From: Sediminicoccus sp. KRV36
GTDB lineage: Bacteria; Pseudomonadota; Alphaproteobacteria; Acetobacterales; Acetobacteraceae
Assembly (NCBI RefSeq): GCF_023243115.1
Contig: NZ_CP085081.1
Span: 3,100,001-3,164,000 of the forward strand
DNA length: 64,000 nt
Direction: 5' to 3'
Shown here: positions 27,167-61,575 of the stretch, one piece after another
Layout of the letters: every line of letters starts with the position of its first letter
Position numbering within the stretch: the stretch's first letter is position 1
Made by a program: the position numbers and the translations under genes
Notes under the pieces: model-generated
Database searches by the model: none
Seen by the model: the letters and a program-made list of their open reading frames with translations, nothing else
What the model was told of the DNA's origin: nothing

Positions 27167-28138
27167 ATGCATCCCGCGCTCTCCATCGTTGTCCCCTGCT
27201 ACAATGAGCAGGAGGTGCTGCCCGAATTCCACCGCCGCCTCGTGGCCGCGATGGAGGGAATCGGCCTCGATTGGGAGGTCGTCTACGTCAATGACGGCTC
27301 ACGCGATGCTACGCTGACCGTGATGAGCAGCCTGGCGACCGCGGATTCGCGCGTGGCGCTGGTCAACCTCTCGCGCAATTTCGGCAAGGAGATCGCGCTC
27401 ACGGCCGGCCTGGATCATGCACGCGGCCATGCCGGGGTCGTGGTGATTGACGCCGACCTCCAGGACCCGCCGGAGGTGATCCCCGAACTCCTGGCCGCCG
27501 CGCGCCAGGGCTACGACATCGCCTATGCCCAGCGCAGCGCCCGGCATGGCGAAGGCGCGCTGAAACGCTTCACCGCCTCCGCCTTCTACCGGGTGATGCA
27601 ACGCCTGGGCGGCAAGGTGCAATTGCCGCCCGATACCGGCGACTTCCGCTACATGTCCCGCCGTTCGCTCGATGCGCTGCTGCAACTGCGGGAGCAGCAT
27701 CGCTTCATGAAGGGGCTGTTTGCCTGGGTGGGCTTCCCGGCCATCGCCGTCCCCTATGAGCGCGCGCCGCGCGCCGCGGGCGAGACCAAGTGGAACTACT
27801 GGAAGCTCTGGAACCTCTCGCTGGAGGGCATCACCAGCTTCACCGTGGGGCCCTTGAAGATCGCGAGCTATCTGGGCCTCGCCACCGCCTTCTTTGCCGG
27901 GCTCTATATCTTTCAGCTGGTCATCCGCACCGTCTTCTTCGGCAACCCCACGCCCGGCTATCCCAGCCTGATGGCCGTGGTGCTCTTCCTGGGCGGCGTG
28001 CAGCTCATGACACTGGGCATCATCGGCGAATATCTCGGCCGCATCTTCAATGAGACCAAGGGACGGCCCCTCTATATTGTCGAGCGGCACATCCCCTCAT
28101 CGGCACAGGCCGAGGCCACCCAGCGCAACGCAGCCTGA
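27167..28138 (+). CDS. Family 2 glycosyltransferase, GtrB/ArnC-like
   Basis: 323 aa. The N-terminal GT-A domain begins SIVVPCYNEQEVLPEF and has the nucleotide-sugar motif DADLQDPPE; two C-terminal helices anchor it in the inner membrane. Such enzymes load a sugar onto undecaprenyl phosphate on the cytoplasmic side. AAGGA precedes the ATG. Its last 42 bp overlap the end of the convergent membrane-protein gene. Confidence 0.88.
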   Translation: MHPALSIVVPCYNEQEVLPEFHRRLVAAMEGIGLDWEVVYVNDGSRDATLTVMSSLATADSRVALVNLSRNFGKEIALTAGLDHARGHAGVVVIDADLQDPPEVIPELLAAARQGYDIAYAQRSARHGEGALKRFTASAFYRVMQRLGGKVQLPPDTGDFRYMSRRSLDALLQLREQHRFMKGLFAWVGFPAIAVPYERAPRAAGETKWNYWKLWNLSLEGITSFTVGPLKIASYLGLATAFFAGLYIFQLVIRTVFFGNPTPGYPSLMAVVLFLGGVQLMTLGIIGEYLGRIFNETKGRPLYIVERHIPSSAQAEATQRNAA

Positions 28139-43894: not shown

Positions 43895-44121
43895 GCGCCC
43901 ATTCCCCTCATCGCCTTTCGGACCTCATCAGCCGCGTTCTGGAGGCAGTCACTGGCGAAGTCGTCCCGCGTGCAAAGCTGGGCACTTTGAAGCGCCGCCA
44001 GCGCATCCAGGGCATGACGCAGCCCGTCAATCTGGACGCTGCACAGCGCCAGCGGAGGGCATTCGGCATAGCCGTCCGACTTGCCGCCATCGGGCTCGGT
44101 GGTTTCAGTCTTCTCGTTCAT
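43891..44121 (-). CDS. Hypothetical small phage protein
   Basis: 76 aa, predicted mostly helical (LRHALDALAALQSAQL, LQNAADEVRKAMRGM). AGGAG lies seven bases before the ATG. ATGA overlaps join it to the recombinase-like gene upstream and the acidic protein downstream. No family recognised. Confidence 0.6.
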   Translation of the reverse strand: MNEKTETTEPDGGKSDGYAECPPLALCSVQIDGLRHALDALAALQSAQLCTRDDFASDCLQNAADEVRKAMRGMGA

Positions 44122-44720
44122 GGCTTCACTCCTCGCTTGAGCATGTAGGCTTCGCGGTTGCCAAACCGCCTGTAGAGCGTGCTGACGCTGGCCTTGACCT
44201 GTTCGGCCACCTGTTCCGCGCTCAATTCGGGATTGGCCCAGGCGTCACCGGCCCGCGCCAGGGCCGCACCCTTGAGCGCAGCGGGTGGCCCGGCATGGCG
44301 CGTGACACCGCGCCGCGCCTTGGCCGCGCGCTCCTTCTGCCCTTGGCTTTCGGCCTCGGCCGCGAAGCCGATGGCCTTGGCCGCGTCGGGATGCACCGTC
44401 ACCACCTGGCCGCTGGCGCAGTCATAGATGCTGGCCCCGGCCTCTCCGATGGCCTGGAGCGCCAGCAGCACATCGGCGCGGGTGGAGCCCAGGCGGGCGG
44501 GCGAGTGGATGGCAAGCTCATCACCCTCGCGCAGCGCCCGCAGGGCATCGGTGCGAGCCGGGGTGACATCGGCGCCCGGCTTGGCGCGGCGCGGTGGGGC
44601 CTCATCCACATAGACCGGCCCCATCGCGGTGAAGTCATCCACCCCTGCCGCGCGCAGGGCCGCTTCCTGCTGTTCGCGGGTCGGGCCGGCTTTGTCGATC
44701 CTGATGTAGCCCAATCTCAT
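44118..44720 (-). CDS. Serine-recombinase-like protein lacking the catalytic serine
   Basis: 200 aa with the Hin/resolvase layout: N-terminal GYIR-I (residues 4-8), an ARLG segment (75-78), and a C-terminal helix-turn-helix (LSAEQVAEQVKASVSTLYRRF, about 167-186). Where Hin has GYIRVS with nucleophile Ser10, this protein has GYIRID-K, so Ser is replaced by Asp9. The second Arg of the RLGR motif is Ser79. DNA binding should be kept, but strand cleavage should not. It may serve as a repressor or accessory factor rather than the integrase. A divergent inverted repeat lies just upstream. Confidence 0.75.
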   Translation of the reverse strand: MRLGYIRIDKAGPTREQQEAALRAAGVDDFTAMGPVYVDEAPPRRAKPGADVTPARTDALRALREGDELAIHSPARLGSTRADVLLALQAIGEAGASIYDCASGQVVTVHPDAAKAIGFAAEAESQGQKERAAKARRGVTRHAGPPAALKGAALARAGDAWANPELSAEQVAEQVKASVSTLYRRFGNREAYMLKRGVKP

Positions 44721-53400: not shown

Positions 53401-54912
53401 CATCCCGCGATAGGCCTCGTTCAGCTCCTGGAGCCTGGAGCGCAGCAAGCGCGCGTCATCGCCCGTGGCGCCTGGGAGGGCATCGCGCGTCGCGCCGGCA
53501 AGCTCCCGGTTGTCCCGCTGCTGGAGGAAGCGCGGGTTGGCTTCACGGGCCAGTTGAAGCTGCCGTTGCAGCGCCGTCTGGCCGGAGTTGCTGGAGGTGG
53601 CTGCCGGGCCTGCGGGGTCGCCGAAGAAGAAGCGCGCGACGTTGCTGTCGCGGAGCGCCGCGGCGAGGTCGTTGATCCCGCCGACGAGCGCGGCGATCGC
53701 GCGCACCGCCAGCGAGAGGCCCGTGACGAGGAACGTGCCGACGCCGACGACGACGGGCTGGATGCCCTGCCAGAGCCGGGTAAAGGCGTTCGACAGTTCC
53801 TCGGTCGCGCGCTGGAGCGGCGTCTTGGCGATCTCGCCGATTGCTCGGTTATAGGCGTCCAGCGTGAGGCGCGCGGCATCGGCGACGCGGCCCTGGTTCT
53901 CCAGGCTGCGGATCGTGCGGACGAGCCCCTCGTCCATTGTGCGCAGGCCGCTGGTCGCCAGTGCCTCGGCCGCCTGGCGCGGGCGGTCGAGGGCCTCGGC
54001 CATTTTCGTTGCCGCCGTTGCGACATCAGTGCCCATCGCAACCGCGAGTCGCTTGGCTTGCGAAATCAAACGCTCCTGCTCATCCCCGCCACCCGTGAAG
54101 TTGCGCGATGATGCGATGATGCGCCCGGCCGTACGGGCATCATTGGTGCTGATCGGCCCGCTCGCCGCCGCGCGCCTGGCCGCGTTCTCTGTGGTCTGGG
54201 CAAGCGCCTCATAGTCGTCGCGCGTGATGCGCAGCCGGTTCGAAAGCTCGGCCAGCGCGCGACCCTGCGATTCCGCAATTATGGTGACAGCCGCGATGGA
54301 GGCGCCAGCCGCCACGGTCGCGCCGATGGTGCTGAAGGCCGCCGCGCGAAGCAAGCCGAAGGCCCGGCCGATGCCACCCACGGCATCGGTGATCTGCGGT
54401 CCCTGCTGCACCAGCACCATCAGCGGGTTCATCCCGCCGAGCAGCGTCACGCCCACGTCGGCGATCTGAGGCGAGAGCTGCTGAAGCTCGCGCGCCGTGA
54501 GGCGGGCGGATGAGCCGACGCCGCTGATGGCAGCGCCCGCGCCCGCGTTCGCCTTCTCCAGGGCGGCCAGGTCTTCGCGTGCCTTCTGGACGCGCAGGCC
54601 CATGGCAGCCAGGGCGCGCTCTGCCGCCGCCTGGCGTTCGCCGCCAGCCGCCAGATCGACGTTGAGGGCCTTCTGCGCCGCCGCCTGCTGTTGCTGCGCC
54701 CGGGTGACGCGCTGCGACGCTGCCGTCATGGGGTCGGCCGAGCGAAGCCAGGATTCGGCCGATCGGGTGGAGCGCGTGACCTTCTCGTCCGTCTCGACCA
54801 CCGCCACGCCAAGCTTTTTCATCGAGGCCGCGGCAGCATCCGCGCCGGCGCTCATCTGGTCGTCAAAGACGCCACGGTAGGCGGCGCGCGTGACCTGTTC
54901 GATCGTCGCCAT
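50452..54912 (-). CDS. Tail tape measure protein
   Basis: 1486 aa, the longest gene in the window. The N-terminal coiled coil (QRVTRAQQQQAAAQKALN, ERALAAMGLRVQKAREDLAALEK) leads into the family segment LQQLSPQIADVGVTLLGGMN (about 144-162) and a hydrophobic stretch (191-213). A glycine-rich hydrophobic region follows after about residue 900, and long helical repeats fill the C-terminal third. It sets tail length and is ejected with the DNA. The length suggests a long flexible tail. Confidence 0.88.
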   Translation of the reverse strand: MATIEQVTRAAYRGVFDDQMSAGADAAAASMKKLGVAVVETDEKVTRSTRSAESWLRSADPMTAASQRVTRAQQQQAAAQKALNVDLAAGGERQAAAERALAAMGLRVQKAREDLAALEKANAGAGAAISGVGSSARLTARELQQLSPQIADVGVTLLGGMNPLMVLVQQGPQITDAVGGIGRAFGLLRAAAFSTIGATVAAGASIAAVTIIAESQGRALAELSNRLRITRDDYEALAQTTENAARRAAASGPISTNDARTAGRIIASSRNFTGGGDEQERLISQAKRLAVAMGTDVATAATKMAEALDRPRQAAEALATSGLRTMDEGLVRTIRSLENQGRVADAARLTLDAYNRAIGEIAKTPLQRATEELSNAFTRLWQGIQPVVVGVGTFLVTGLSLAVRAIAALVGGINDLAAALRDSNVARFFFGDPAGPAATSSNSGQTALQRQLQLAREANPRFLQQRDNRELAGATRDALPGATGDDARLLRSRLQELNEAYRGMQGPVADYLKGLREQITLAQHADGADREMAQALIAVENASGGAAAAGEAMRLVRQRLAQEFANDNRIIQRNITGIEAQAEAQALGTRAANEARIAIQAYNETLLKYQASDPRFEQALDNRVGLLLRTRDAQEALNRATTVSSQEDQLAFIQRETELVGAGVVVRERELAVLRERQRIMGTGEAAPGAEDPRLLNAARIAEATQALQRQQSAFTEIQRVGEQAFDRIGSAITTAFANGTLQSLKFGNIAKAVFSEVAQAMLRLAVINPLKNALGGTNSPTIYGAGGIGSILGPGGNAQAVVSNGGSLTGATQQAGQLAGLRQAGSYGNLGNAFTGNGLANTGWGSVDGLLNTQLTSPTLTATGYVGAGGVPIVDGSASLSAAGAIGGAAGIAGGAYGIYSGIQKGGLGGGAQVAGGALTAGLSAAIIAGLSVPVYGWIAAAVLSIAGALLPGQKPSSRGQETRVDFNSGAQTYAGLSGDRYSQANRDQSASAAQSIVNLATQLGDALGGARINGNAAVGVTERTLYLDVAGRKAQFGNDEEGSKALADQAAQFVLEAFRSVAVGDYNKLVNNSGSLDALKSNLEFYEGTYKALAKTAEATNEFQTQLDALAKPYNDAIDRARTLSLAEDQLTARREEAIAKATAQRDAQVANIRDGIALRLVNSGALAGDGQGLADSINARIEAAQTTQAIEEMRTQLQALGLTAGEVGADVYQFTGALQAEAYGRLAARQAAEAQRAADLEAASQARALGFGAANDSLLSRAMRAGLVSGDADAFDAARRAREEIRALSDELTQLGINSDGVAAAVASLTAIQAAEAEQTRKAAIATGVVGLTPQALQAAAGGALSTIISLRDYVGALSSTQAGAGTAIDRLSGSQRQFDAIFGAASAGDANSIAGLQSAAETYRLAAREVYGGGQGFADAISLIEQRIGAISGLGSEALTQAWVRENDRQNTDRVVDSVADLKAEVAALRATMTMLLMRPAA

Positions 54913-55553
54913 CAGATCCTCGCCGAGATCACGAGGGCCGGGCTCTGGACGGTCTTCCCGTCGCCGGTGCGATACTTGCCGGGGAAGTTCACGTCATACC
55001 GGCGATAGGCGTCCACCGCGTTGCCGAAGCGGCCTCGCAGGGCCTTAGCCGCGTCGCCGTAGAGGTCGGGCGGAACCTTGAATCGCAGCCGGCGACCGCC
55101 GACCTTCTGGACATCCACGAGGCGGTTGTAGGGCTCGACGTTGCCGATCGTGATCTCTGCGACATCCGGTGTCACCGCCTCCGGGTTGAAGTTGGCGGCC
55201 CGCACGAACTTGCCCGCGCCGCCCTTCGTCATGGCGATGCCCAGGAAGAAGCCCTTCTTGAAGTCGCCCGACAGCACGGGCGATCGAGCCTGGAGGAACG
55301 CCAGCGCGAAGGCGGCCACGTCGCCCAGGTAGTAGAATTCGTCCACGATCAGGCCGGTGGGCTTCACGCTGGAGGCCGGTGCGTTCTTCACGCCGTCCAC
55401 GATGCGAGTGAAGCGGGGCGCGGCCCGGCGTGATGCGATCAGATCCCGCGTGCCGCGCTCCGCCACATCGGCGAGCGCCGCCGACATCGCCGCCGGCGAG
55501 AGCGAGCGGCTCAGGAAGACATCTACGCTGCGCTGGAATGCCGTCCCGCTCAT
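54912..55553 (-). CDS. Phage protein between the tail chaperones and tape measure
   Basis: 213 aa from ATG 55553. The N-terminal part is helical (VDVFLSRSLSPAAMSAALADVAERG) and the middle beta-rich (YYLGDVAAFALAFLQAR, FFLGIAMTKGG). It overlaps the chaperone stop by four bases and the tape-measure start by one. In lambda-like phages T is followed directly by the tape measure, so this is an extra gene. Function unknown; a completion or chaperone role is guessed. Confidence 0.6.
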   Translation of the reverse strand: MSGTAFQRSVDVFLSRSLSPAAMSAALADVAERGTRDLIASRRAAPRFTRIVDGVKNAPASSVKPTGLIVDEFYYLGDVAAFALAFLQARSPVLSGDFKKGFFLGIAMTKGGAGKFVRAANFNPEAVTPDVAEITIGNVEPYNRLVDVQKVGGRRLRFKVPPDLYGDAAKALRGRFGNAVDAYRRYDVNFPGKYRTGDGKTVQSPALVISARI

Positions 55554-55819
55554 TGAGGCTTCGCCGCCCTGCGGAGGCGCTCCTGTTCGTTGTGGATATC
55601 CATGAACTGGTCGTCCATGGCGCAGATGCATGCGTCGAGGAACATCGTCTCTGCCTCGCTGTAGCGATGCGCCGAGGCCCAGCGCATCACGGTTGTCCAG
55701 GGCAGGTGCATGGGCGATGCGCCCATGCCGCCGATCCATGGCCGGTCGCCCCGATGCAGGCGCCACCAGCAGCGCCAGACCCAGAGCAGAGCGGGATCAG
55801 GAATCACCTGGTCCCGCAT
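55550..55819 (-). CDS. Tail assembly chaperone T domain (made mainly as a -1 frameshift fusion)
   Basis: From Met 55819 this is 89 aa, Trp-rich (LLWVWRCWWRLHRGDRPW). The frame stays open upstream to about 55945, overlapping the end of the preceding G gene in the -1 frame. Frameshifting at 55933-55939 would give a 265-aa GT protein: 138 residues of G, 38 linker residues (starting LCAALGWQLSQ) and these 89. Internal initiation at 55819 is possible but has no known precedent role. GT recruits the tape measure during tail assembly. Confidence 0.75.
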   Translation of the reverse strand: MRDQVIPDPALLWVWRCWWRLHRGDRPWIGGMGASPMHLPWTTVMRWASAHRYSEAETMFLDACICAMDDQFMDIHNEQERLRRAAKPQ

Positions 55820-55905
55820 TTTGTCGGCGGCGAGTGCGGCTGCGATTTCGTCGCCAGTCTCTTCCGCGATCTCCTGGAGGTTGACTGCGTCGGTGCGCGC
55901 CTGGC

Positions 55906-56346
55906 TCAGTTGCCAGCCAAGGGCGGCGCAGAGTTTCCCTTGGCCTCATCGAGCACCCCCGCGCGCTGCTGGCCGACCTGCGCGGCCGCCTTGAAGCATG
56001 CGAGGAACAGCTCGGGGTAATCGGGGTCGCGGAGAAGGTCGAAGAACTGGTCAGCGGTGACGGGCACCCCGGCGTCGTCGGTCAGGTTCCGCACGGGGGG
56101 CTCGAGCAGCACATGCTCGATGAGGCACTCGATATTGATCTCGCGCCGCTCGGCGGTCAGGAGCTTGCGCTCGTCGCCGCCATACTTCTGTGCCGCGCGC
56201 CGCTGCCGCGCGGCCTGGGCATCGTAGTAGGCGTCCGTGAAGCCGCGGGTGTTGATTTCCAGGTCGTCGTATTCGTCGCCGACGCGAATCCACTCGCCGT
56301 TGCGGATGAGCGTGCTGTTCTGTCGAAAGCTGCTGAATTTCGCCAT
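55906..56346 (-). CDS. Tail assembly chaperone G
   Basis: 146 aa from ATG 56346 (AGAAGGA upstream). AKFSSFRQNSTLIRNGEWIR at the start and the helical ERREINIECLIEHVLLEP and DQFFDLLRDPDYPELFLACF segments match small siphovirus chaperones encoded after the tail tube. Its last codons contain a slippery heptamer that lets some ribosomes continue in the T frame. It coats the tape measure protein with GT. Confidence 0.75.
   Translation of the reverse strand: MAKFSSFRQNSTLIRNGEWIRVGDEYDDLEINTRGFTDAYYDAQAARQRRAAQKYGGDERKLLTAERREINIECLIEHVLLEPPVRNLTDDAGVPVTADQFFDLLRDPDYPELFLACFKAAAQVGQQRAGVLDEAKGNSAPPLAGN
55933..55939 (-). promoter_or_regulatory. Programmed -1 ribosomal frameshift heptamer G GGA AAC
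   Basis: On the minus strand the codons AAG GGA AAC contain G-GGA-AAC in the correct X-XXY-YYZ phase of the G reading frame, nine codons before its stop. The -1 frame is open from just upstream of this point through the T gene. Lambda uses the near-identical G-GGA-AAG in the same gene pair. Confidence 0.8.
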
Positions 56347-56406
56347 AGTCGATCCTTCTCGGGGTTGCGTCGCCATCACGGCGATGCGTTGCGGGGTGCG
56401 GGAAAT

Positions 56407-56440
56407 GGGGGTGGACGCCCCCCGCAGAACGTCCACCCCC
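56407..56440 (-). terminator. Strong hairpin between tail tube and chaperone genes
   Basis: GGGGGTGGACG (56407-56417) and CGTCCACCCCC (56430-56440) form a perfect 11-bp stem with a 12-base loop in the 138-bp gap. It follows the tail tube stop on the transcript. Partial termination or 3' end protection would give more tail-tube mRNA than downstream mRNA. No U-tract. Confidence 0.55.
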
Positions 56441-56484
56441 TCACCAGCGCGCGGTGCCTCCGAGGCGCACGCGCACCCGGAGCC

Positions 56485-57948
56485 TTATTCAAAGTATTCC
56501 AGGCGATCCAGCGTGATCATCACGCCCGTCAGCGTGTCGCGGCTGGCCTTCATCATCGCCTTCAGCATCACGTCGCTGTTGCGCGAGCCGGCGTTCGGAT
56601 TGCCGCTCATCGGCGTCACCCGGGGCAGGCCCCAGACGAGAGCCTGGCTGTTCTTGAACACGCGCCAGGACAGGTTGGTCGGCGTGCCGCCCATGACCTT
56701 CGTGAAGATGACGTTGTCGCCGAAATAGACCTCCAGGTCGGCCGTCACGTCGAGCGATCCCGAGCCCAGGTCAACCGCGGCGATGGCGTCCACCGCTTCA
56801 ATCATCCGCATGTTGTTGCGGATATTGAGGGTAATGGAGCTGGCCCAATTCGACGTGGTGATCTGCACGCCGTTTTCGGCGAGGCGTCCGACGTTCGCGC
56901 TGCCGGCCAGGACCTGGAAGATGGCCGGGTCCGGAGCCGCGTCGTATGTCGAGCCGTTGGCGACCGTGCCCTGGCCGCCACCCATGCCCATGAAGGACAA
57001 GCTGCCGCCGATCTTCTTCTTCTTCTCGAAGGGCAGCGAGAGGCTATCCACGGTCATCCCGCGCTGGATGATATGCGTGGGTGCGGCTTGGCCAAGGAAG
57101 CTGCGCTCCAGCGATATGCCGATCTCGGTCGTGCCGTTGCGCAGCCGATCGCCGAAGAAGATGCGGATGGTCTTGCCAGCACCTGCGTCCACCGCGGCGC
57201 TGGGCATGTTGTCCAAGGTCAGAGCGGTGGCGCTGATCGCGGTGATGCGGGCCCAATCATTGCGCGCGGCGGTGGCGAACTGGAATGCTGCGCCCGTGCC
57301 GCCGACCTTGATCCACTGGCCGACCGCCAGGCCGAGCGTCGTGAAGTTGAGCGTGGTGCTGGCAAGCCCGGTTGCCGTCGCGGTGATGTCGCCGCTGACG
57401 CCCTGGCAGCCCACCACCTTAGCGCGCGACGCGGCGGGCGGCACGGCCTCCGCGACGAAGCCCGAGGCTGTGCTGACGAAGCTGGTCGCGCCGCCGGTGG
57501 TGACGGGGAACAAGCCGTTGTTCGCAGCCTGCGCGTTGCCGGTGAGGCGCACCAGGTGGCCGACGACGAAGGCAGCGCCCGTGGTGCAGGTCAGGGTGTT
57601 GGCGGTGGTGCCGATATCGGTGATCACCGAATCCGCGGTGCCATCGTTGTCCCGTTCGGGGGTCTGCACGAAGCTGCTCTGGAACGCGCTCTCCAAGACG
57701 GTCGAAAGCAGCGTGCTCGGCATGGGATAGATCAGCTCGAAGTTGATCCCGCCGTCGTTCTTCTCGCCCACCTTGAAGGGATCGACCGTCTGGCGGTCGT
57801 CGCGGATTTCCTCGCTCTCCTCCATCTGCGGCTGATAGGCGAGGCTTTCGCCCTGCATCCGAAAGCCGCGCATGCGAGGGGATGCAGGCGTGGTGCCCAG
57901 CGTCGTTTCGCGAACGCCGCTCAACCTTACGCGATTTGTGTCGGTCAC
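56485..57948 (-). CDS. Major tail tube protein
   Basis: 487 aa from GTG 57948 with GGAG upstream. VRLSGVRETTLGTTP, ESEEIRDDRQTVDPFKVGEKNDGGINFELIYPM-type strands (about 40-75) and the C-terminal ITLDRLEYFE are those of siphovirus tail tube proteins. It is longer than the common 200-350 aa, with an inserted beta-rich region of Ala/Thr/Gly repeats (about 100-230) that may be an Ig-like decoration. It polymerises into the tail tube. Confidence 0.8.
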   Translation of the reverse strand: MTDTNRVRLSGVRETTLGTTPASPRMRGFRMQGESLAYQPQMEESEEIRDDRQTVDPFKVGEKNDGGINFELIYPMPSTLLSTVLESAFQSSFVQTPERDNDGTADSVITDIGTTANTLTCTTGAAFVVGHLVRLTGNAQAANNGLFPVTTGGATSFVSTASGFVAEAVPPAASRAKVVGCQGVSGDITATATGLASTTLNFTTLGLAVGQWIKVGGTGAAFQFATAARNDWARITAISATALTLDNMPSAAVDAGAGKTIRIFFGDRLRNGTTEIGISLERSFLGQAAPTHIIQRGMTVDSLSLPFEKKKKIGGSLSFMGMGGGQGTVANGSTYDAAPDPAIFQVLAGSANVGRLAENGVQITTSNWASSITLNIRNNMRMIEAVDAIAAVDLGSGSLDVTADLEVYFGDNVIFTKVMGGTPTNLSWRVFKNSQALVWGLPRVTPMSGNPNAGSRNSDVMLKAMMKASRDTLTGVMITLDRLEYFE

Positions 57949-58045
57949 TGGGTGGGCTCCTTCAAAGGGAATGCGGCGTCATCACGACGCTGCGGTCAGG
58001 CCTTGCCGAAGGGCCGGATTAGGCGCCGCCTGGTGGCGGGAAGGG

Positions 58046-60172: not shown

Positions 60173-61324
60173 TCATGCGCGCAGGCCCGGCAGAGCCGCG
60201 TCGGGTAAGGCATAGGGGAGGTATCGGAGGGCGCGGCAATAGCCGTACGGGGAGTTGCCGCCCGCAGCCGTGTTGGCAATGCGCAGCGTCGTCATACCGG
60301 ACGTAGGGGCGCCAGAGACAGACACTACAGCGCCCCCACTTACAGTGTTTGCGATGCGCCCCGCCCCGTCAGACGCGATAGCTGCGTAGAACGATGCACC
60401 CGGGGTCATTGAAAATGTCGCGGCATCCACGCCATTCGCGTTAGCGACCACCAGACTTGATCCGGCGCTGTTACGCATAGACCACCGAAACGTGTCAGAC
60501 GCATCGTCCGTCTGAAGCAGCCACTGCCCCAGCCCAGCCGGCGCGGGCTGCGGCAGCATGAACTCGCCCCAGATCGTGCAGGCGCCGGATGCCGGGATGC
60601 CCAGCGCGGCGAGCGAAAAGGTCAGGTTGTCCGTCAGCCGCGTGCCGGCCATGCCCGTGGTGACGATGGGAGAGCTGCAAAACGCGGCATCCTCGAATTG
60701 CGGCTGGCAGGAATAGAAGAACGAACCGCTGGCGATGTCAGCCCTCAGCACCATCGGGTAATCCGCAGTCGTAGATGGGACATAGACCCGCGAAATTCGC
60801 TGCCACTGATCCCGGATGGAAAGGTTCGCATCCACAAGAGTGGCACTGGATGTGGGGAGGTCCTGCGATAGCGTCAGCGCCGGAGCCCCGCCGTAGTTTT
60901 GGCTCGAAGGCAGATATATCCAGCAATGCATCGCGCATTTCTGCCCCGCCACGACCGAGAAACCGGCCAGCGCGCCTACATTGTTGGAGGCCGCGGCCGT
61001 ATCCCGCGTGTGCTTCCTGATCAGTGTCCCAGCCCCGAAAGAGGGGATATCCGTGCTGGCCACATTCGCGTTGGGGGCAGGGCCTGGATTTGCAATGCCC
61101 GCCGCCGAATCAAGCACGCGGTTTGTCCGCTGGCCTTCCAGCATCAGCCCCAGCGTCGGGTCAAAGCGCGGGACGTTGCTCCCATAGGCGAGCAGCGATC
61201 CGCCCACCACCTGCCAAGCCGCCGAGCCGCGCGTGAAGTTGGCGGCCGAATGCAGCCCCCGCACATCCATCAGCGAGATGGGGCCGGCATTCCCGCGCCA
61301 GAAGCTGATGCCGGTCCCGATCAT
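60173..61324 (-). CDS. Head-spike-fibre-like carbohydrate-binding protein
   Basis: 383 aa. The middle LGLMLEGQRTNRVLDSA is the signature of phage head spike fibre domains, followed by two beta-sandwich regions with Ser/Thr/Gly-rich strands, the second LamG-like (ACTIWGEFMLPQPAPAGLG). Together with the 83-aa base protein whose stop it overlaps (TGATG), it resembles the GhsA/GhsB head spikes of Rhodobacter gene transfer agent, which bind capsule. Here it would give the capsid a glycan-binding fibre. Confidence 0.65.
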   Translation of the reverse strand: MIGTGISFWRGNAGPISLMDVRGLHSAANFTRGSAAWQVVGGSLLAYGSNVPRFDPTLGLMLEGQRTNRVLDSAAGIANPGPAPNANVASTDIPSFGAGTLIRKHTRDTAAASNNVGALAGFSVVAGQKCAMHCWIYLPSSQNYGGAPALTLSQDLPTSSATLVDANLSIRDQWQRISRVYVPSTTADYPMVLRADIASGSFFYSCQPQFEDAAFCSSPIVTTGMAGTRLTDNLTFSLAALGIPASGACTIWGEFMLPQPAPAGLGQWLLQTDDASDTFRWSMRNSAGSSLVVANANGVDAATFSMTPGASFYAAIASDGAGRIANTVSGGAVVSVSGAPTSGMTTLRIANTAAGGNSPYGYCRALRYLPYALPDAALPGLRA

Positions 61325-61575
61325 CAGGCGAGGCCGACGATACCCGTGGCCGTGCTGGCCAACGCCACGCGCCGCGCCCGAATGGGCAGGATCGCCCCCG
61401 CCAGCACGTTGAACGTCACAGCCGCGCCACCCGAAGCCGGCGTGGCAATGACGGTCCCGGCACCGCCGATAAACAGCGCCTTCGGGATCGTGGCCAGATC
61501 GGTATCAGCCGGCGTGATGGCAAAGAAATTGCGGGCCGAAGCCGTCAAGCCGTCCTGCTGGAAGTTATCGCTCAT
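61324..61575 (-). CDS. Spike base protein, RCAP_Rcc01079 (GhsA) family
   Basis: 83 aa from ATG 61575. DNFQQDGLTASARNFFAITP and the beta-rich AILPIRARRVALASTATGI ending match the small spike base proteins first described in the Rhodobacter gene transfer agent head. It should anchor the spike fibre on the capsid. Its start lies inside the end of the helicase gene (11-base overlap), so it is translated from the replication transcript. Confidence 0.75.
   Translation of the reverse strand: MSDNFQQDGLTASARNFFAITPADTDLATIPKALFIGGAGTVIATPASGGAAVTFNVLAGAILPIRARRVALASTATGIVGLA

Follow-up and report, generated by a model that had tools for sequence, protein, structure and literature searches.

In lambda and its relatives the G and G-T genes lie between the major tail or tube gene and the tape measure gene, where an in-phase heptamer of the form XXXYYYZ near the end of the first open-reading frame is followed by an extension in the -1 frame, as the accessible part of PMC5009743 describes. 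The same source covers the g-t genes of the haloarchaeal viruses HCTV-1, -2 and -5, two of which carry G_GGA_AAC and A_AAA_AAC, the third having G_GGA_AAG. In bacteria, a published frameshift prediction concerns gp18/gp19 of Burkholderia phage KL1 (record JF939047), with the heptamer GGGAAAC and parts of 142 and 122 aa (PMC3483164, in its available text), and the tail chaperones of Caulobacter phages phiCbK and Colossus have AAAAAAC and GGGAAAC, respectively (PMC3556154, likewise). For tail chaperone sites from another cluster, experiments yielded values of 6 and 7%, according to the excerpted text of PMC3711429. A literature search, mostly without subscription papers, returned KL1, phiCbK and Colossus as the nearest cases and nothing on members from the Acetobacteraceae.

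Here we describe a locus of this arrangement in a 64,000-nucleotide stretch of the Sediminicoccus sp. KRV36 genome (contig NZ_CP085081.1, positions 3,100,001 to 3,164,000; hereafter the window, to which all coordinates refer unless own-genome positions are stated). At a probability of roughly 93%, judged from sequence comparison, we read it as a -1 programmed tail assembly chaperone frameshift of the lambda G/GT kind, belonging to a siphophage-type prophage of this member of the Acetobacteraceae. The features concerned are these:

56485..57948, minus strand: tail tube protein gene, upstream of G (PF18906 Phage_tube_2, E=1.9e-33)
56353..56360, minus strand: SD-like GAGAAGGA of the G start codon, seen in the sequence
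55906..56346, minus strand: open-reading frame G, predicted first tail assembly chaperone, 146 aa unshifted, with its first 138 codons common to the fusion (phrog_19222, E=3.8e-28, and relatives)
55933..55939, minus strand: putative slippery heptamer G GGA AAC, in the slip phase of G, with XXXAAAC in 142 of 151 loci
55906..55945, minus strand: 40-nt stretch open in both the 0 and -1 frames, from the reading frames and relatives
55550..55933, minus strand: the T part in the -1 frame, 127 codons and a stop, with the C at 55933 read twice
54912..55553, minus strand: 213-aa gene between T and the tape measure gene, function unknown (phrog_16336, E=1.8e-47), its ATG overlapping the T stop codon
50452..54912, minus strand: tape measure protein gene, 1486 aa (PF06791 TMP_2, E=7.4e-25)

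On the minus strand G runs from an ATG at 56346-56344 to a TGA at 55908-55906 (146 codons and a stop) and ends in the codons GCC AAG GGA AAC TCT GCG CCG CCC TTG GCT GGC AAC TGA, the AAC of the heptamer being nine codons before the TGA. The -1 frame is open from 55945 to 55550, with its stop at 55552-55550, and 138 codons through AAC plus 127 in the -1 frame give a predicted G-T fusion of 265 residues; after the slip the first ATG of this frame, which is also the first ATG, GTG or TTG, comes 38 codons on, at 55819. The preliminary description had put the heptamer at 55939-55933 of the minus strand in slip phase, which is correct to the base, a recount of codons agrees with its nine codons from AAC to the stop at 55906, and its open -1 frame from about 55945 to 55550 and 265-aa fusion (138 + 38 + 89) tally in coordinates and lengths. 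It had also compared the site with a lambda G GGA AAG at the equivalent point: the likeness holds for the arrangement, but the lambda site as quoted ends in G (AAG) whereas the window has AAC and its family always C, and the window has an extra gene between T and the tape measure gene. Its placing of G after the tail tube gene is borne out by the PF18906 gene upstream and the TMP_2 gene downstream. T does not stand directly before the tape measure gene, as the 213-aa gene intervenes.

Family assignments are stronger for T than for G. T matches phrog_8233 (E=3.3e-10) and phrog_3817, named 'tail chaperonin' (E=2.4e-9), G matches phrog_8233 weakly (E=0.0023), and this one profile ('tail assembly chaperone', 271 positions) spans both halves, with G at 6-116 and T at 138-258. 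Among 38 members each, 33 T proteins match Pfam Phage_TAC_18 at E<=0.01 (the window's own T at 19.2 bits, below the cut-off of 27), whilst 7 G proteins match phrog_313 and 6 phrog_8233, both named tail assembly chaperone. The window's G had no match in Pfam, none of G, T and the 213-aa gene had one in NCBIfam, and a Rfam search of 50-64 kb returned nothing at the gathering score. Further upstream of the tube gene are matches to head-tail adaptor, head closure and tail terminator families. Taken together, the position between tube and tape measure genes, the in-phase heptamer, the conserved open -1 frame and the chaperone-family match place the pair among the G/GT frameshift genes, and the earlier naming of G and T as tail assembly chaperones is supported by gene order, by the profile matches and, above all, by conservation of the heptamer and the T frame.

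The 213-aa gene found no match in a single-protein search of viral contigs, and in a search of phage records it was 47% identical over 83% to gene 42 of Azospirillum phage Cd (NC_010355). Phage Cd has the same gene order as the window across genes 41 to 42, with GGGAAAC and then TAA; G is gene 41, the T frame is open for 371 nt past the stop and aligns with other T proteins, and the T part (27394-27768 of the record) lies unannotated between genes 41 and 42. Ordinary gene calling had been expected to miss the fusion and to report two unrelated small proteins, and in this record, the one inspected, the fusion is indeed missed, but what stands there is a single protein followed by a blank stretch, not two proteins; the pair is indicated to make a fused tail chaperone. 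KL1 shares with the window both GGGAAAC and an intervening gene before the tape measure gene, and its T part aligns with the T profile (hhalign 97.5%, E=8e-12; G part 72.5%), yet its intervening protein has 144 aa against 213, and its stop follows the heptamer directly, as in most relatives, whereas that of the window comes nine codons after AAC (KL1 features from the available text of PMC3483164). The likeness of phiCbK and Colossus is in the two heptamers, and that of two of the three HCTV viruses in the shift site, their hosts being archaeal, unlike that of the window (PMC5009743, accessible part).

Most ribosomes would make G, of 146 aa, whilst a minority, with tRNA-Gly on GGA and tRNA-Asn on AAC, would slip back one base onto GGG AAA and make the 265-aa G-T fusion. 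By analogy with lambda, G may bind the tape measure protein and G-T may recruit tube subunits, with the slip rate setting the ratio of G to G-T. We infer the occurrence of the slip, its rate, the tRNA movement and the roles of both products; comparison gives the phase, the conservation of the heptamer, the conservation of T from just after the slip and, in 21 distinct relatives, the confinement of the shift.

An alignment of relatives had been set beforehand as a check, and it came out with both the heptamer and the T frame conserved. The set holds 151 loci, including the own copy and duplicates: 45 oriented loci (44 relatives, phage Cd among them, and the own copy), 58 viral contigs retrieved with G, and 48 loci retrieved with T (39 on viral contigs and 9 on genome contigs). 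Merging copies identical over ±60 nt gave 103 distinct sites, which fall into 38 clusters at 60% identity, the clustering using motif-bearing loci only. An in-phase XXXAAAC stands at the homologous place in 142 of the 151 loci, and in 43 of the 44 first-collected relatives (43 obtained via the G family in genomes, plus phage Cd). The distinct heptamers are GGGAAAC (85), AAAAAAC (17) and CCCAAAC (1), and the X triplet switches as a block between GGG, AAA and CCC, with at least 8 changes on a 50-row tree; this joint change of all three X bases supports the slip, because the slip geometry demands it and the protein does not.

The G family (phrog_19222) was found in 34 of 395 genomes from the order of the host and in 3 of 385 from its class, the own genome counted in both. 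Eight of the nine genome contigs found through T are from Gluconobacter, Swaminathania, Acetobacter or Pseudoroseomonas, the ninth from an alphaproteobacterium. Searches with single proteins reached less far: G matched in 3 of 147 related genomes, own included, and had no match in phage records and viral contigs, and T had none in genome contigs. A distant DNA search of phage records with 54900-57960 gave four matches, each covering at most 24% of the query, in phage Cd (twice), EBPR siphovirus 3 and Rhodobacter phage RcSimone-Hastad.

None of the nine loci lacking the motif has another canonical heptamer in phase, and four of them are cut, broken or doubtful: L062 ends before the slip site, L142 and L154 have the heptamer and a following TGA out of phase with their G match, and L110 has a weak T match. 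The other five (L022, L058, L059, L060 and L071, the last identical to L058 in the site region) form a side clade with C CCT TCC where L057 has C CCA AAC. In this clade the T frame continues in -1 with the conserved start PFLR[TR]ALRLTLDW, and the -1 shift therefore seems to be kept; the exact slip in the five loci we infer from sequence. CCCTTCC has the same shape as the 'threetwotwo' motif of the PRFect preprint, explained there by G:U pairing, as judged by motif name and example from the accessible text (PMC10274946). Relatives without the slippery phase had been named as evidence that would tell against the frameshift, and on this point the phase stands in all but the nine loci, whereas the CCCTTCC clade departs from the canonical heptamer with its T frame still open.

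The window sequence alone is only suggestive, because synonymous shuffling yields such a site in 8-12% of trials: with the codons of the open-reading frame itself, 7.6% of trials produced a heptamer at the window's place and 11.6% a canonical in-phase one (Y = A/T) anywhere in the last 13 codons, the latter figure becoming 46% when heptamers with Y = C or G are counted too. Across relatives the in-phase heptamer is far beyond chance, as XXXAAAC occurred at none of 11,265 control positions, taken in phase at least 20 codons upstream in the same genes, against 142 of 151 loci; any XXXYYYZ occurred at 10 of these control positions, and one with Y = A/T at 1. GGA, the glycine codon needed at the slip, otherwise accounts for 51 of 835 Gly codons in the G genes of the set, and the counts of GGA and AAC at the slip itself, which among the 103 sites are by construction, are not counted as evidence.

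The stop of G lies in two layouts. It follows the heptamer directly in 69 of the 103 distinct sites (54 TGA, 15 TAA), whilst the other 34, which include the window, have it 25 to 67 nt downstream of the heptamer's first base. The stop-adjacent layout speaks for -1 slippage while the heptamer occupies the E and P sites, in competition with release factor, and there is a bacterial precedent in which release factor competed with the shift when a stop was placed after the HIV slippery sequence (earlier work recounted in the accessible part of PMC4373837). We consider this unlikely for the family: the window has a sense codon after its heptamer and the layouts switch at least nine times on the tree (seven of the switches forced by well-supported branches), so that an adjacent stop is not required. 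A single cluster of eight close to the window, with L038 and L049 in it, contains both layouts. Moreover, the adjacent stop falls within a Leu codon of T and the next base (CTG A or CTA A), a position that could account for it with no selection acting.

Two further elements around the heptamer are candidate stimulators:

55944..55947, minus strand: SD-like GAGG, 4 nt upstream of the heptamer (-8 to -5), a possible stimulator seen in the sequence
55890..55932, minus strand: candidate stem-loop immediately 3' of the heptamer, folding at -20.4 kcal/mol with z -1.8, where three other stretches have z -1.1 to +1.2

AGG at -10 to -8 occurs in 75 of the 103 distinct sites against 449 of 11,475 in-phase control places; it is absent there in the window, whose GAGG lies one codon nearer the heptamer than the AGG of most relatives. 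Where the AGG place holds a Glu codon it is GAG in 51 cases and GAA in 6, against 413 and 366 elsewhere, and pooling Glu, Lys and Gln gives the codon bias a Fisher p=4e-8, a significance exaggerated by relatedness among the sequences. Of the 38 cluster representatives, 26 have an SD-like 4-mer between -16 and -4, versus 93 of 742 control windows. The raw SD signal is strong; once amino acids are fixed, a small gain in pairing energy is left, at -0.35 ± 0.19 over all 103 sites, -0.52 ± 0.20 in the 69 stop-adjacent ones and -0.16 ± 0.37 in the 34 others, control places ranging from -0.19 to +0.32. AGG and the stop-adjacent layout showed no association. Folding across the family is slightly stronger at the site itself, with a mean z of -0.75 where the stretch starts at the heptamer's first base and -0.85 where it starts 12 nt further on (both ± 0.28), against -0.04 to -0.61 at eleven other offsets, and a common downstream fold was sought among the relatives and none seen. 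The upstream SD-like AGG or GAGG is a possible modulator of the shift, and so is the adjacent stop, which most relatives have and the window lacks.

All 103 distinct sites close the heptamer with C (AAAC), and across the 151 loci a canonical heptamer that ends otherwise occurs at the site only in overlap with GGGAAAC, namely GGGGGGA in L020 and L030 and AAAGGGA in L086. In the E. coli ranking of heptamers, AAG types perform best, and A_AA.A_AA.C and G_GG.A_AA.C are of low efficiency and very likely used by insertion sequences (PMC4066793, accessible part). The 44 tRNA matches of the host, all scanned, include Asn-GTT and Gly-TCC, in favour of the proposed slip, along with Gly-CCC, Gly-GCC and the lysine tRNAs Lys-CTT and Lys-TTT. 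A lysine tRNA reading AAG perfectly would weaken AAG sites, an idea that would give a reason for the use of AAC, but the second lysine tRNA is no proof of it, as AAG motifs occur in insertion sequences of many species with both lysine tRNAs (PMC4066793, same part). It is also doubtful, though conceivable, that the family settled on xxx AAC, inefficient in E. coli, usually with an adjacent stop and an SD-like AGG, as a natural bacterial case of E/P-site slippage against release factor, and that the CCCTTCC clade has retained the shift after losing the canonical heptamer. The roughly one hundred distinct variants of this frameshift site found in nature (X being G, A or C, with the stop adjacent or later, plus one non-canonical clade) form a natural experiment on two questions: why these phages use AAC although AAG does better in E. 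coli data, and whether the slip is tuned by a stop in the A site.

Conservation of T bears on a further alternative, in which T is a separate gene with its own start (ATG 55819), perhaps translationally coupled, and the heptamer is incidental. An 89-aa open-reading frame from that ATG does exist, and in the 38 cluster representatives the first T-frame ATG, GTG or TTG comes 2 to 70 codons after the slip, as near as 2 in some relatives. The first ATG itself is scattered, however, at 15 to 109 codons down, no SD-like sequence was seen just before 55819, and T is conserved upstream of this ATG. In the T alignment (38 rows, mean column identity 37%) the pattern LxxALxWxLE begins just after the slip, with Leu1 invariant and Leu5, W53, W56, L59, P74 and D107 at >=90%; Leu1 and Leu5 lie well upstream of the window's first possible T start, 38 codons on. 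The base directly after the heptamer is T in 103 of 103 distinct sites, and the conservation of Leu1 is partly forced by this T and the last C of the heptamer, which does not apply to Leu5. As a separately started T would leave the in-phase heptamer of the 142 loci without explanation, we regard this alternative as very improbable.

The flanking stops are a further constraint. At 21 of the 103 distinct sites the heptamer is closely preceded by a -1-frame stop and closely followed by a 0-frame stop, and since it is thus flanked in both frames, the shift in these relatives is confined to the heptamer or the adjacent stop. Slippage of the polymerase rather than the ribosome could find a substrate in the six A of the AAAAAAC variants (17 of 103) and in the six G before AAAC in L020 and L030. 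Most sites, however, are GGGAAAC with short runs only, and polymerase slippage does not need the strict codon phase that the family keeps, so that a transcriptional shift appears still less probable than a separate start. The possibility that G-T is really one open-reading frame, split by an error of sequencing or assembly or by a mutation as the prophage decays, is next to negligible and is refuted by the relatives, for although decay is plausible in a prophage without detected head genes, the same frame relation recurs in 142 of the 151 loci, from many genomes and metagenome contigs, and 21 of the 103 distinct sites have the flanking stops.

Programmed -1 slippage at the heptamer is thus the reading we retain. 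A few copies depart from it in T: with the heptamer intact, T is shortened in L048 (13 codons), L150 (33), L136 (57) and L043 (91), while the T of L145 extends to 511 codons. These five may be decayed copies or sequence errors.

The prophage that carries the site has an integrase (own genome 3175001-3176059) adjoining a tRNA-Arg gene (3176088-3176160), and between the integrase and the tail genes lie a CI-like repressor, a primase and a helicase-like gene. The helicase-like gene runs directly into genes of gene transfer agent (GTA) type, its end overlapping the start of the spike gene:

61327-61572, minus strand: GTA-type spike base protein gene (NF048002, 75 bits)
60176-61324, minus strand: spike fibre gene (NF048003, 58 bits)

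In this prophage, taken as 42000-64000 of the window and 3164001-3176059 of the own genome, head genes were sought with PHROGs, Pfam and NCBIfam (at least one of them for each open-reading frame), covering all 17 filter-picked frames of >=90 aa in 42-64 kb and, over the 18 kb that follow, 16 of 23 picked frames; picking was by a codon-position G+C filter, which can miss genes, and the 7 unscanned frames are of 101 to 175 aa. Among the scanned frames there was no match to a terminase, portal, head protease or major head protein. Such genes do stand near the tail modules of two relatives (G166 and G291), and the terminase and major head protein of G291 found no match in the own genome, an empty result that alone shows nothing. 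Because no head gene was matched and the helicase-like gene leads straight into the spike genes, the head module seems to have been lost from the window copy, whose tails may then have no virion to serve. This copy may be a remnant without heads or a tail maker, and its intact frameshift site and T frame would reflect either a recent loss or tails that are still of use. Near the left side of the prophage lies a gene resembling resolvases and DNA invertases (44118-44720, minus strand; PF00239, phrog_125).
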